Position numbers and translations under genes: made by a program
Shown: piece by piece, positions 2,218-6,765 of the stretch
How positions within the stretch are numbered: position 1 is the first letter of the stretch
Layout: every line of letters begins with the position of its first letter
The notes under the pieces: model-generated
Database searches by the model: none
The model's input: only the letters and a program-made list of their open reading frames with translations
What the model was told of the DNA's origin: nothing
Assembly: GCF_003034915.1 (NCBI RefSeq)
Contig: NZ_PZJX01000014.1
Location: 1-64,000, forward strand
Reading direction: 5' to 3'
Length of the DNA stretch: 64,000 bases
Source of the DNA: Mesorhizobium helmanticense
GTDB taxonomy: Bacteria; Pseudomonadota; Alphaproteobacteria; Rhizobiales; Rhizobiaceae

Positions 2218-2369
2218 GCGCTTGGCGGACCCTCTGGGCGAACCCTCACGGAACGGGCATTTGCAGTTAACGCTTTGTTAATAAAAGCCGACGGCGCGAA
2301 GGTCTACAAGCCATTGCGTGCAGCAGTCGGAATCTCTGGGCGCTTGGTTAACGCCGGTAGGATTTTATG

Positions 2370-2417
2370 TTGCGCTGCAACAAAGATATTGCAATGCACA
2401 AAATTTGCCTTTATATT
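2370..2417 (+). promoter_or_regulatory. Probable phasin promoter with TTGC/GCAA operator-like repeats
   Basis: A possible -35 TTGCAA (2389-2394) and -10 TATATT (2412-2417) are separated by 17 bp, placing a start site near 2424 and a leader of about 55 nt before the phasin ATG. Two TTGC/GCAA symmetry elements overlap it: TTGC-N3-GCAA at 2370-2380 and the palindrome ATTGCAAT at 2388-2395. PhaR repressors of polyhydroxybutyrate metabolism are known to bind TGC/GCA-rich sites before phasin genes. That this is a PhaR operator is inference. Confidence 0.4.
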
Positions 2418-2478
2418 GCCATCATACATGAACGAGACGGCTTTCCTTCAAGGCCGCCGCTACGACAAAGGATGGAAA

Positions 2479-2937
2479 ATGTCCAAGACCAAAACTGCCG
2501 AGACGATTGAAAACGTTGAATTCCCGAGCTTCGACGCGTCCAAGGCCACCGACCAGATCCGCGCTTTCGCCGAAAAGGGCGTTGAGCAGTCGAAAGAGGC
2601 CTATGCCAAGCTGAAGACCGGCGCCGAGGAGACCCAGAAGGCTCTTGAGTCGACCTTCGAGACCGCCAAGACCGTTTCCAGCGACCTGTCGCTCAAGACC
2701 ATCGCTGCTTTGCGCGCCAATGCCGAAGCCGGCTTTTCGCACCTCGAGGCTCTGATCGGCGCGAAGTCGCTTTCGGAAGTCGTCGAGCTGCAGACTGCAT
2801 TCCTGCGCAAGCACGTCGAAACGACCGTCGAGCAGGCCAAGGACTTCCAGACCGTCGCCTCCAAGGCGGCCGAGGACGTCTCCAAGCCGATCAAGACCGC
2901 CTTCGAGAAGGCCGTAAAGAACATCAAGGCCGCCTAA
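2479..2937 (+). CDS. Phasin family protein (Phasin_2 type)
   Basis: A 152-residue protein, almost entirely helical and rich in Ala, Lys and Glu, with no signal peptide. Heptad-like stretches (KALESTFETAKTVSSDL, TAFLRKHVETTVEQAKDF) fit the Phasin_2 family, whose members coat polyhydroxyalkanoate granules in the cytoplasm and set their size and number. The open frame extends upstream, but the ATG at 2479 is preferred because AAAGGA lies about 6 nt before it and family members start MSKTK-like. It has its own promoter region and is followed by a small RNA gene. Role as a granule coat is by family; some relatives act as general stress or DNA-associated proteins. Confidence 0.85.
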   Translation: MSKTKTAETIENVEFPSFDASKATDQIRAFAEKGVEQSKEAYAKLKTGAEETQKALESTFETAKTVSSDLSLKTIAALRANAEAGFSHLEALIGAKSLSEVVELQTAFLRKHVETTVEQAKDFQTVASKAAEDVSKPIKTAFEKAVKNIKAA

Positions 2938-3012
2938 TATTTGCGCACAACTCGAAGATGCATCAAAACGTCGCATTTCGTCAGACAAATAGATATGCGA
3001 TAGAATTGGTGA

Positions 3013-3130
3013 AAGTGAATACCCGGTGGGTGGAACCTCCTCCCTCTGCTCTCCGGGGTGACCAGCCAGCACCTCCTCCCGCTGGCTCGTAACAGGAAAA
3101 GGCCGGCACCTCCTCCCGCCGGCCTTTTTC
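3013..3130 (+). ncRNA. Three-hairpin small RNA with triple anti-Shine-Dalgarno motif (alpha-r14/NfeR1-like)
   Basis: Three successive hairpins each present the same CCTCCTCCC sequence in the loop: 3036-3044 (stem ACCCGG/CCGGGGT, about 3021-3057), 3072-3080 (stem AGCCAGC 3064-3070 / GCTGGCT 3081-3087) and 3109-3117 (stem GGCCGGC 3101-3107 / GCCGGCC 3118-3124, which is also the terminator). The motifs are spaced 36 and 37 nt apart. CCUCCUCCC loops are the hallmark of the alpha-r14 small RNAs of rhizobia, such as NfeR1 of Sinorhizobium meliloti, and of the related CcsR 'cuckoo' RNAs. They pair with ribosome-binding sites of target mRNAs. The 5' end is estimated; no convincing -35/-10 was seen. 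No open frame of coding character covers the region. Confidence 0.8.
3101..3129 (+). terminator. Rho-independent terminator of the small RNA
   Basis: Perfect 7-bp stem GGCCGGC/GCCGGCC with the loop ACCTCCTCCC, preceded by AAAA and followed directly by TTTTT. It forms the third hairpin of the small RNA. Confidence 0.9.
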
Positions 3131-3352
3131 TTTGCCCGGCGAAGGTGGCCAGCAATCTTTGCTACAGCGCCGCGCCTCCCTTGGACGCTGTAGAACTTTG
3201 GGTTTGCGCATGTTCCCCAGCGAAAATCGATCCGATTTTCGGGGCCATGCGCTGCCAAGAGCTTGAATTAAACTCCGATAGCCCGTATGGACGCATCGCC
3301 GAACGACAGAGCGTATCCTGGAGAATGAACCTCGATCCGCTCAGGCAAATGT

Positions 3353-3429
3353 GCCGTTGTAGCTCAGATGGTTAGAGCGCCGGATTGTGGATCCGGAGGT
3401 CGCTGGTTCGATCCCAGCCAACGGTACCA
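3353..3429 (+). tRNA. tRNA-His (GTG anticodon)
   Basis: A full cloverleaf is present: acceptor GCCGTTG / CAACGGT, D-arm GCTC/GAGC, anticodon stem CCGGA/TCCGG with loop TTGTGGA (anticodon GTG at 3387-3389), T-arm CTGG-TTCGATC-CCAG, and encoded CCA (3427-3429). The base before position 1 is T and the discriminator is A (3426). The usual G-1:C73 identity element of tRNA-His is therefore missing, as is known for alphaproteobacteria with their divergent histidyl-tRNA synthetase. Position 1:72 is a G.U pair. Confidence 0.97.
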
Positions 3430-3487
3430 TCGGCTCCTCCGCTAAGTCTTTGTATTTTTTATAGAATTTCCCTATTCTCTAGAGGCC

Positions 3488-3869
3488 GTGGGAAGACGAC
3501 GCGGAGCACATGATCCTAACCGCTTCCTGCAACTGAGGGGCGACCATTTCCATTACTACCGGCGGGTGCCCAGAGAGGTCAGGGACCTCGACGAGCGTGG
3601 CGTATTCGTGCGCCGCGCCCTCGACACCACTGATCGCATGAAGGCGCGTACCGCCAGGGACCACCCGCTTTCTGGAACTTGGCCCGGGATCTTCTCTCAG
3701 CGAGATGGTAGCGAGGACGGATCCCAGCACGGTTACGCGGTCGTTGAGTGATTTCAAAACGATCGAGGGTGCGAAAGCCTGGGCGGCACAAAGCGCCGAT
3801 CTAGTGAACACGGCAGTCTGGCATCGACTGGCGCCCCCACAACGCCTTGACTTAACGTCTTTCATATAG
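3488..3869 (+). pseudogene. Decayed tyrosine-recombinase (integrase) N-terminus beside tRNA-His
   Basis: The first 57 or so codons (from GTG 3488) read like the N-terminal domain found in many alphaproteobacterial phage/island integrases (DUF6538-like): RFLQLRGDHFHYYRRVPREV then DLDERGVFVRRALDTTDR. Integrase-like text stops near 3660. The frame then runs to a stop at 3751 in unrelated text, while another frame stays open to a stop at 3867-3869. The core-binding and catalytic domains (the R-H-R-Y set) are absent. Its position 58 bp after a tRNA gene is typical for an integrase of an element inserted at the tRNA 3' end. Identification rests on recognition of a short segment. Confidence 0.6.
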
Positions 3870-3921: not shown

Positions 3922-6765
3922 ATGGCAAACGACAGCGAATCTGGCACCTCGACAATTGCCTTTGACCGCTTCGTGCTGACACCAATCAAACGATTGCTTA
4001 CGAGAGATGGCGAGCCAATCGCAATTGGTGGCCGAGCGCTCGACATTCTGATCGCATTAACCGATCGGCCCACGGAGATCGTGAGCGGGCGTAAATTGAT
4101 TGATATCGTGTGGCCGGATGTGACGGTCGAAGAGGCCAATCTCCGCGTCCACATCGCCGCTCTTCGTAAGGTCCTGGGCGACGCTCGAGACGGAAATCGC
4201 TTTCTTATTACCGTACCTGGTCGAGGATACGCGTTCGTTGCTCCTTTGCGCTCACCCCATAGCGGCACTAGCTCTATTTACAGTGAAGCCGGGCTGCCGC
4301 AATCAAAGAACTTGCCTGCACCGTTGCGGTCAATTGCTGGCCGCGCCGAAACGTTGGCAGAGTTGATCGCGCAGGTGCAATCAAACCGCTTGGTAAGTGT
4401 TGTGGGGCCGGGCGGCATTGGAAAGACCACGGTCACGATAGCGGTTGCCCACGCGCTTCTGTCTGACTTTGGAAACGAAATGGTTTTCTTTGTCGATCTT
4501 GGTTCCCTGGATGACAAAGCCGACGCTGCGAGTGCTGTTGCCGCCGCTATTGGATGTTCTGTGCAAGGTCTTGTACCAGATCACGCTATACCCGCGTTTC
4601 TCGCGGACAAGCGTGCCCTGCTCATGCTGGACAGCTGCGAGCATGTTATGGAGACAGTCGCGCCGCTGACAAAACACATAGTCGCTGGGGCGCCGTCCAT
4701 TCATATTTTGGCAACGAGCAGAGAAGCACTTCGCCTCGAGTTAGAGAACGTCCATTTGCTCCCGCCGCTTGCTTGGCCGCCTGACGCCGCGCCGTCTGCG
4801 GCTTCGGCTCTCGCTTCGCCGGCAGTGCAACTTTTTATGGAAAAGGCTGCTGCCGGGGGGCATTTGGACGGCCTTCAGGACAGCGATGCCCCCATTGTAG
4901 CTGACATCTGCCGACGGCTTGATGGGATTGCGTTGGCGATCGAGATCGCTGCAAGCCGAGTGGGAACGTATGGCATTAGAGGAGTGGCCAGCCTCCTCAA
5001 TGAGTCGGATCCATTACAATTGCAAGGTCGGCGAGGTGCCACGTCGAGGCACCAAACGTTGCAGGCGATGCTTGACTGGAGTTTCAACCTGTTGTCGGGA
5101 AGCGAGCAAAAGACGCTCTGCACACTCTCAATTTTTATCGGTCAATTCCCCCTCGAGGCAGCCTATGCGGTTGCGGGTGTTGTGGACAATGACAGAAAGA
5201 AACTAGCGACCACCATTGCAAGCTTAGCCGACAAATCTCTGATTTCAATCTCATCGATTAGCGGCCTTGTCTACTACCGACTTCTGGATACGACGCGCGC
5301 ATACGCCTCTTCCAAGCTCAAGGTTGGCGACGAGGAAAGGGCAATAGCCGGGCGCCACGCCCTCTACTTCGACAGTTTCCTCAAATCGCACTTTGCAGGA
5401 CAAGGTTTTGATGGCAGGGAGCCGGCCAAGTACACTCCTCATCTAGGCAATATCCGCAAGGCGCTTGAGTGGAGTTTTTCCGATCGGGGCGATCCCGCCA
5501 TCGGACGCGAGCTTGCCGCCAATGCCGCGTCAATATTTCTGGAAATTTCCCAATTTGGAGAATGCCAGAGATGGTGTCGTCAAGCGATATCTGGGCTACC
5601 TGAAAGAGATCGTGGGACATCACTAGAGCTACAATTATATTACGCACTGGCGCGATCGGCGCTCTACACTCCTGGAAGCGTCAACGAGGTCAGGGACGCG
5701 TTCAAACGCGCATTGCATCTGTCAGAGACTTTACACGACGAACGTCGTCAATTCGATCTGCTCGCCGATTTCAATGTCTATCTCGTTCGCAATGGTGATT
5801 TCCAAGGCGCGATTGCTACAGCGAAGGAAAGCGCCGCTATCGCTCAGCGAACGGGCGACCCCGCCGAAAAAATTCTTTCAGAGTGGTTGCTTGGCGCCTC
5901 ATATCACGCGACTGGCAATCAGGCGGCTGCGCTGCGTCATTGCAAGAATGGCTTCCTGTTGCAGGCGTTTCCCGCCTCGTCTTTGAAATTGGACCTAGCT
6001 AGCGAAGCGCGTGCGCGGCTGGCCTTGACGCGATCCCTGTGGCTGCGAGGTTTTCCCGATCAAGCTCTCGAATCCGCCCATGAGACAATAGAACACATGC
6101 GCGCCTACAGCCATCATGCTTCCTACTGCTTTGCCTTAGTCTGGACGATCCCCGTCTTCTTTTGGTGCGGCGCATATAAGATGGCGGCCGAGCCGATTGA
6201 GAGCGCGCTATCACATGCATCCAAGTATTCTCTCCCTGCCTTTCAGGCCATCGCCCGTGCACAGAAGGGCGAGTTCCTGCTTGTAAATGGGGACGATTCG
6301 ACGGGGTTGGAGATGCTCCAGCAAGGCTACTCAACCATGCTTTCCAGCCACTATAGCATAATAGCTTCTTCGACGTCCTGTGTGTTGGCAAAAGCGTTGG
6401 CAGCTTCAGCACGAGGCGAAGAAGCGCGGCAAGTGCTTGAAGTAGCGTTGTCACGCGCCGATTTGGTTAACGAACAATGCTGGCGGCCAGAGTTGCTACG
6501 AACTCAAGGCGAGATCGAGTTGATGATGCCGCAGCCGGACCTTGCTTCTGCCGAGAAATTTCTTCTGAGGTCAATTTCTTGCGCGCGAGAGCAATCCGCC
6601 TTCAGTTGGGAACTAAAGGCAGCAATTCCCCTTGCCCAAATGTGGAGGGATTTGGGTAGAAATCAGGAGGCCAGATCGCTGCTAGGAAGTGTTTACCAGC
6701 GATTTACTGAAGGATTTGGAACGCGAGATCTTATCGCAGCATGTCAACTTCTGGATCAGCTCTAA
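3922..6765 (+). CDS. Winged-helix / STAND-type NTPase / TPR transcriptional regulator (copy 1)
   Basis: 947 residues. Residues about 8-105 form an OmpR/CadC-type winged helix (IGGRALDILIAL, VEEANLRVHIAALRKVLG, VPGRGYAFVAP). A P-loop GPGGIGKTT follows at about 160-169 with a Walker-B-like LLMLDSCEH at about 232. The C-terminal half is repeat-rich and helical, like TPRs. This is the layout of large signal-integrating ATPases (COG3903-like): ligand or partner binding by the repeats would drive NTP-dependent opening and DNA binding. ATG 3922 is chosen over TTG 3916; CCAAGGG lies upstream. A close paralogue, with the same ending YQRFTEGF.TRDL, sits at 41718-44651. This copy is visibly poorer in GC, with AT-ending codons, suggesting separate acquisition next to the tRNA/integrase site. 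Target genes are unknown. Confidence 0.8.
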   Translation: MANDSESGTSTIAFDRFVLTPIKRLLTRDGEPIAIGGRALDILIALTDRPTEIVSGRKLIDIVWPDVTVEEANLRVHIAALRKVLGDARDGNRFLITVPGRGYAFVAPLRSPHSGTSSIYSEAGLPQSKNLPAPLRSIAGRAETLAELIAQVQSNRLVSVVGPGGIGKTTVTIAVAHALLSDFGNEMVFFVDLGSLDDKADAASAVAAAIGCSVQGLVPDHAIPAFLADKRALLMLDSCEHVMETVAPLTKHIVAGAPSIHILATSREALRLELENVHLLPPLAWPPDAAPSAASALASPAVQLFMEKAAAGGHLDGLQDSDAPIVADICRRLDGIALAIEIAASRVGTYGIRGVASLLNESDPLQLQGRRGATSRHQTLQAMLDWSFNLLSGSEQKTLCTLSIFIGQFPLEAAYAVAGVVDNDRKKLATTIASLADKSLISISSISGLVYYRLLDTTRAYASSKLKVGDEERAIAGRHALYFDSFLKSHFAGQGFDGREPAKYTPHLGNIRKALEWSFSDRGDPAIGRELAANAASIFLEISQFGECQRWCRQAISGLPERDRGTSLELQLYYALARSALYTPGSVNEVRDAFKRALHLSETLHDERRQFDLLADFNVYLVRNGDFQGAIATAKESAAIAQRTGDPAEKILSEWLLGASYHATGNQAAALRHCKNGFLLQAFPASSLKLDLASEARARLALTRSLWLRGFPDQALESAHETIEHMRAYSHHASYCFALVWTIPVFFWCGAYKMAAEPIESALSHASKYSLPAFQAIARAQKGEFLLVNGDDSTGLEMLQQGYSTMLSSHYSIIASSTSCVLAKALAASARGEEARQVLEVALSRADLVNEQCWRPELLRTQGEIELMMPQPDLASAEKFLLRSISCAREQSAFSWELKAAIPLAQMWRDLGRNQEARSLLGSVYQRFTEGFGTRDLIAACQLLDQL

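Follow-up and report, generated by a model that had tools for sequence, protein, structure and literature searches.

Small RNAs whose hairpin loops carry an anti-Shine-Dalgarno sequence pair with the ribosome-binding sites of mRNAs. NfeR1 (SmrC14, SmelC397) of Sinorhizobium meliloti is the best-known member of the alpha-r14 (ar14) family; it silences mRNAs at their ribosome sites, and its loops act redundantly on ntrB and two ABC transporter mRNAs (PMC10746234). A 2007 survey placed NfeR1 between SMc02051 and tig (PMC2780559). Of the six NfeR1-type copies of S. meliloti, Northern blots under the conditions used reliably detected only one (PMC7143759). SmelA075, another RNA with CCUCCUCCC, was reported on Northern blots to be stress-induced and processed, so copies besides NfeR1 can be expressed; fragmented microsynteny was described for the CCUCCUCCC families SmelA075 and SmelA099 (PMC3927594). 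In Rhodobacter sphaeroides, CcsR1-4 are released by RNase E from the 3' UTR of the ccaF1 mRNA (PMC8625941, PMC10253847).

A motif bound by the regulator PhaR (AniA) has been described in S. meliloti, where two boxes flank the -35 element of phaP1 and of phaP2, those of phaP1 lying 108 and 90 before the ATG (PMC12542648, 2025). The same report describes PhaR binding and PHB-dependent derepression for both genes, and lower levels of ABC transporter proteins in phaR mutants (PMC12542648). Here we analyse an ar14 RNA that follows a phasin gene in a 64,000-nt stretch of the Mesorhizobium helmanticense genome (the window).

Results

The window carries three exact copies of CCTCCTCCC on the plus strand at a pitch of 36 and 37 nt (Table 1), as the first-pass annotation of this DNA had described. 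The 9-mer was absent elsewhere from both strands of the 64 kb (expected count 0.65). At least three copies occurred anywhere in 3 of 100 shuffled versions of the 64 kb, and the whole genome (6.88 Mb) holds 46 copies as compared to 36 of the reversed pattern. By itself the 9-mer is unremarkable; the remarkable part is the regularly spaced array. When overlapping 260-nt windows were drawn at random from this 64-kb stretch, not one of just under 20,000 held even two regularly spaced loops. Folding of 3018-3130 in isolation (113 nt) gave three hairpins of 36 nt, each with CCTCCTCCC inside a 10-nt loop, with an energy of -54.3 kcal/mol (z -4.77; 0 of 200 shuffles equally stable). With flanks included (2990-3140), z was merely -2.10, and 2 of 200 shuffles were equally stable. 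The third hairpin has a 13-bp stem with the U-run in its 3' arm and, judged by sequence and fold, is built as the Rho-independent terminator that ends ar14 RNAs and that had been proposed here. It is absent from the list produced by our simple terminator scan, which accepts only loops of 3-8.

Table 1. Features of the phasin-ar14 locus (window positions).
Feature	Position	Strand	Basis and remarks
PhaR-type box 1, palindromic	2365..2385		Motif search; 1 mismatch to S. meliloti motif; starts 114 nt before ATG
PhaR-type box 2	2384..2404		Motif search; 0 mismatches; starts 95 nt before ATG; overlaps -35-like hexamer 2389-2394
Sigma-70-like TTGCAA-17-TATATT for phasin gene	2389..2417	+	Consensus match only
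Phasin gene (PF09361, Phasin_2), 152 aa; proposed host mRNA	2479..2937	+	ORF; Pfam E 6.1e-16
ATGC-N11-GCAT dyad in conserved block; possible regulator site or promoter element	2958..2976		Mesorhizobium alignment
Weak promoter-like TCGTCA-17-TAGAAT; could start RNA near 3013; poorly conserved in genus	2978..3006	+	Promoter scan; genus alignment
ar14 (alpha-r14) small RNA, three hairpins	3018..3130	+	RF02344 match; fold; covariation
Hairpin 1, CCTCCTCCC loop 3036-3044	3022..3057	+	Motif search; fold
Hairpin 2, CCTCCTCCC loop 3072-3080	3058..3093	+	Motif search; fold
Hairpin 3, CCTCCTCCC loop 3109-3117, U-run 3125-3129; terminator of small RNA, proposedly of phasin mRNA too	3095..3130	+	Sequence; motif search; fold
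tRNA-His(gtg), conserved downstream neighbour; outside the RNA	3353..3429	+	Rfam; locus comparison

A search of Rfam at curated cut-offs returned two matches in the window, a tRNA and ar14 (RF02344). The latter is full length (model 1-123) and scored 70.1 bits against a cut-off of 58.8 (E 1.3e-10), so that the earlier assignment to the alpha-r14 type is borne out by a covariance-model search. The hallmarks of the family, namely three hairpins, CCUCCUCCC unpaired in each loop and variable stems, are all present. Covariation was measured in an alignment of 29 rows, comprising the window and 28 of the 36 carriers from outside Mesorhizobium that are described below; L215, L222, L230, L235, L236, L241, L246 and L294 were omitted, and since six of these are two-loop rows the alignment leans to full arrays. 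Seventeen of the 20 consensus pairs had changed on both sides. Paired cells amounted to 91.0%, compared to 73.3% in shuffles and 29-51% when slid, and 116 cells had changed on both sides as against 39.2 in shuffles; none of 500 shuffles was as high on any pairing measure. In some distant rows the third loop is altered or shorter. The loops are kept while the stems covary and, taken together with the RF02344 score, this places the RNA in the known ar14 family; it is not a new kind of RNA. An alpha-r14 small regulatory RNA at this position appears real and, as far as sequence goes, well founded.

We fetched 80 Mesorhizobium phasin loci by protein similarity, among which named records hold phasins 98% identical to that of the window; one contig ends early, leaving 79 readable loci. 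Three exact loops were present in 78 of these and two in the remaining one, with a first pitch of 34-36 nt, a second of 36-37 nt, and the first loop 85-99 nt past the phasin stop. Conservation of the three loops in related genomes was thus confirmed, in the genus and, as the alignment indicates, across genera. To obtain a set picked by the phasin alone and not by the small RNA, we searched 151 family genomes, kept the best phasin of each of the 102 that gave a hit at 1e-30 or better, and scored loops within 260 nt of the stop. Three spaced loops followed 32 of the phasins, two followed 6, and one or none followed 64, so that an array (at least two spaced loops) was present behind 38 of 102 best phasins and in 29 of 73 genera. 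Arrays followed 37 of 61 phasins at 55% identity or more and 1 of 41 below. Among the loci with one loop or none, L217, L219, L232, L233, L234, L237 and L238 carry two loops separated by 62-71 nt, the pattern that divergence of a middle loop would leave.

A quick phasin tree of 106 rows combined the 102 best phasins with three added loci and a second phasin from one genome. One side, of 44 rows with a support of 89, includes the Sinorhizobium-like phasin and has no array, while the other side of 62 rows holds all 40 arrays, 7 partial arrays and 15 rows without any. The distribution can be explained by 11 changes on this unrooted tree, in which 44 of 103 inner branches are open. Because 64 of 102 phasins lack it, including every row on the Sinorhizobium-like side, the array appears to be dispensable in many relatives. 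The downstream tRNA-His was found in all 79 fetched Mesorhizobium phasin loci; among the other carriers 30 of 33 loci had it, and among phasins with one loop or none 29 of 31. As carriers and non-carriers share this neighbour, the locus seems to be the same across genomes, and only the small RNA comes and goes. No plasmid record with DNA similar to the small RNA was found; with the longer stretch 2300-3440 as query there were 75 matching records, and in the ten listed the similarity lay in the phasin.

The distance between phasin and array bears on the origin of the RNA. In 35 of the 36 non-Mesorhizobium carriers from the phasin-chosen set, the first loop lies 23-49 nt past the stop (76 nt in the other). 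A second set of 26 other-genus loci, picked by small-RNA similarity as the best 26 of 35 such genomes, has the first loop 31-50 nt past the phasin stop in every case; 22 of the 26 pass the Rfam ar14 cut-off, with L183, L188, L198 and L199 below. A 3' UTR-derived RNA lies between the stop codon and the only terminator and has no promoter of its own, and the spacer of the other genera is too short to hold one. Since a gap of 23-49 nt (35 of 36) is too small for a promoter or a separate phasin terminator, outside Mesorhizobium the phasin mRNA seems to have the array as its 3' UTR and terminator. The first-pass annotation had placed the RNA right after a phasin gene; this adjacency is conserved, and the phrase understates a link that reads as a phasin 3' UTR in nearly all of these carriers.

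The Mesorhizobium spacer is longer, with about 60 extra nt between phasin and RNA that include a conserved dyad. Of the 21 columns in the dyad block, 19 are at least 90% conserved among 80 Mesorhizobium sequences and two vary, and the dyad was not seen in the 26 other-genus loci. A PhaR motif search ruled it out as a PhaR box; a regulator might bind there to control a second start. No unusual structure was detected in the spacer 2935-3016 (fold z -0.42). Synonymous sites were also examined for signs that the phasin gene contains a promoter (33 of 36 non-Mesorhizobium carriers; 31 of 64 phasins with one loop or none). The values were 0.72 for the last 20 codons and 0.63 elsewhere in carriers, 0.63 and 0.59 in the others, and 0.85 and 0.82 in Mesorhizobium, a small excess at the end that is not decisive.

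Upstream of the phasin gene we found the PhaR (AniA) regulon motif WNWDDNYGCRNYGCRNHHWNW at two positions (Table 1), and its perfect form occurs once in the 64 kb. Boxes were counted in the 250 nt that precede the phasin, and no more than 1 mismatch was allowed. At least one PhaR-type box was present in 80 of 80 Mesorhizobium loci and in all 25 other carriers examined (25 of 36), and two boxes in 77 of 80 and 20 of 25, respectively; 140 of 3000 random 250-nt windows had such a box, real sites included. PhaR-type boxes in the phasin promoter suggest that the phasin transcript should respond to PHB, as should the RNA if transcription reads through. Among 394 family genomes, one has a promoter that differs from the phaP1 boxes of S. 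meliloti at 2 of 39 positions; its phasin has 148 aa, and the fetched locus, which includes about 980 nt downstream, has no loop motif on the strand of the phasin. If S. meliloti resembles that genome, the drop in ABC transporter proteins in its phaR mutants is not due to a phasin-linked RNA. By coordinates, the S. meliloti sense RNA SmelC365 (1599106-1599255) may overlap the end of phaP2.

Candidate targets were sought as ribosome-type sites matching the loop perfectly. Such sites do occur, with 42 instances of GGGAGGAG-N3-9-ATG in the genome as compared to 10 when the pattern is reversed; in two of the 42 the match is to the antisense strand of another ar14 locus. The first 30 sites led to 22 distinct ORFs of 60 aa or more, and 20 of these were scanned against Pfam. 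They included five ABC transporter parts (a share that has no background control), GlnE, a ROK-family protein, a Gfo/Idh oxidoreductase and others, and four had no Pfam match. The AAAGGA leader of the phasin itself, also put forward as a target, did not stand out; with a duplex energy of -7.1 against a median of -6.9 it ranked 34 of 75 mechanically listed ORF starts, and we rejected it as a special target. The 16S rRNA 3' end was not found in this genome with a 16-mer query, so that pairing between the loops and ribosome sites is assumed here on general grounds.

Past the tRNA-His, a short ORF (3488-3751) has a weak match to DUF6538 (24.8 bits, cut-off 27). Domains of this type occur at the N-terminus of phage-type integrases, and the ORF may be a cut-off integrase beside the tRNA. 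A duplicated 3' end of tRNA-His, which would mark an island border, was looked for in the 64-kb window and not found. A large regulator follows at 3922-6765, with a winged-helix DNA-binding domain above the Pfam cut-off and weaker STAND-type ATPase and TPR matches.

The genome holds six ar14 matches, five of which exceed the cut-off. Contig C7 has two tandem copies (100.5 and 90.4 bits) that start 15 nt past the stop of a DUF1127 gene, a layout that matches the published CIN1, or ccaF1-CcsR, arrangement (PMC10253847). Single copies lie about 100 nt past the stop of a LacI-type regulator gene (C28:318737-318855) and of a MucR/Ros regulator gene (C72:2303-2420), and the first loop is ACTCCTCCC in both. 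Apparent sugar ABC transporter genes precede the LacI-type gene, and the copy on C72 lies opposite a cold-shock-domain gene. The sixth match, on C33, is weak (39.1 bits). All 37 genomes of the genus searched, this one included, have an ar14 match at E 0.001 or better. Several relatives carry two or three ar14-like arrays in series, and one locus (L025, genome G005) has twelve loops in about 565 nt, equal to four such arrays.

Discussion

We consider it probable that the window encodes a 3' UTR-derived, trans-acting ar14 anti-Shine-Dalgarno RNA of a phaP1-type phasin mRNA, which is controlled by PHB, cleaved free and silences other mRNAs through its loops. Phasin transcription would continue as far as hairpin 3 and thereby produce the RNA together with the phasin mRNA, and cleavage would free the RNA in the way that CcsR1-4 are freed from the ccaF1 mRNA in Rhodobacter; in Mesorhizobium there is perhaps a second start inside the spacer. 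Induction would occur when PHB granules draw PhaR off the phasin promoter. The loops would pair with GGAGGAG-type ribosome sites of other mRNAs and silence them, and the silenced mRNAs probably include many for nutrient uptake. The steps for which the sequence speaks are the family, the covarying hairpins with conserved loops, the terminator, the conserved attachment to the phasin stop and the two PhaR-type boxes.

A stand-alone trans-acting RNA that starts from a private promoter in the 80-nt spacer, similar to NfeR1 and with the phasin as a mere neighbour, seems rather unlikely to us. The founder NfeR1 does have its own sigma-70 promoter (PMC10746234), and the Mesorhizobium spacer combines the strongly conserved ATGC-N11-GCAT block with a weak -35/-10 match and a start near 3013, so a private promoter in this genus is possible. 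However, the -10 match is poorly conserved in the genus, and RNA and phasin remain joined in the 26 other-genus loci even though their spacers leave no room for a promoter. The published NfeR1 promoter consensus, CTTAGAC-N17-CTATAT, had no exact match in 394 family genomes, this genome included, although an exact consensus search is a weak test. We regard as still less probable that the hairpins serve mainly as terminator and stabiliser of the phasin mRNA, with the loops a relic or acting in cis and no free regulatory RNA produced. Five of the six NfeR1-type copies of S. meliloti were not reliably detected (PMC7143759), and the array is missing in 15 of 62 rows even on the carrier side of the phasin tree. 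Nevertheless, one hairpin would suffice for termination where three are present, and it would be left unexplained why the letters of the loops are kept while the stems change across many genera.

That the window RNA is the orthologue of NfeR1 itself, acting in the NtrBC loop, is extremely improbable. Family and loops are identical, and the NfeR1 loops silence ntrB (PMC10746234), but NfeR1 lies between SMc02051 and tig, and the sole tig match in this genome (C7:219348-219800) is about 3 kb from the higher-scoring tandem pair on C7, with other genes intervening. Orthology of the window copy is rejected by this position, and since tig lies so near, the C7 pair is the likely counterpart of NfeR1 and the window copy a likely paralogue. 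The annotation as an NfeR1/alpha-r14 type is hence upheld for the family and not for NfeR1 itself, and the ar14 copies within one genome should not all carry the name NfeR1. All copies having the same loops, the window copy may possibly have targets in common with NfeR1.

Our preferred reading, an ar14 RNA derived from the phasin 3' UTR, can be set against the described systems. The RNA shares with the ar14 family its length, the three hairpins, CCUCCUCCC in each loop, a terminator as hairpin 3 and the occurrence of several copies per genome; it shows no difference in itself, and the phasin as host gene stands out. With NfeR1 it has in common the family, the loops and the expected mode of action, and differs in locus and in the promoter that NfeR1 owns. 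CcsR1-4, the cuckoo RNAs behind ccaF1 (DUF1127, 'CIN1'), likewise are hairpins with anti-Shine-Dalgarno loops in a 3' UTR. Their host is a DUF1127 gene and their trigger RpoHI/RpoHII, whereas a Phasin_2 gene lies directly upstream of the window RNA in place of a DUF1127 gene, and the predicted trigger is PhaR/PHB. Among the small RNAs of S. meliloti, AbcR1/2 are tied to uptake and form a separate family, while MmgR is tied to phasin and PHB and is of another family, a separate gene repressed by PhaR/AniA. A literature search, with the main cuckoo RNA paper and the alpha-r14 survey beyond its reach, gave no paper that joins an ar14 or cuckoo RNA to a phasin gene, and the word 'phasin' is absent from the main text of PMC3927594. 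The link may already be in print, since the name 'CIN1' suggests further numbered loci.

The family itself is already known; what the phasin address and the PhaR boxes appear to offer is a new idea that can be tested. The address suggests that carbon storage may be coupled to silencing of the genes for nutrient uptake. More tentatively, and with less confidence than in the reading for this locus, we see it as a possibility that across a large branch of the family, which we take to be GTDB's Rhizobiaceae, the phasin gene also serves as a small-RNA gene. One PhaR-controlled transcript would then yield both a granule coat protein and a triple anti-Shine-Dalgarno tail, and filling with PHB would lower the translation of uptake mRNAs. 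The tail would have arisen on one side of the phasin tree or disappeared from the other, with repeated losses thereafter. If this is true, a storage-granule protein and a broad translational silencer would come from one message, and the uptake of nutrients by rhizobia and their relatives would be tied directly to the storage of carbon. Anti-Shine-Dalgarno arrays would then ride behind varied host genes (DUF1127, phasin and, in this genome, possibly mucR-type and lacI-type genes), each with its own trigger.
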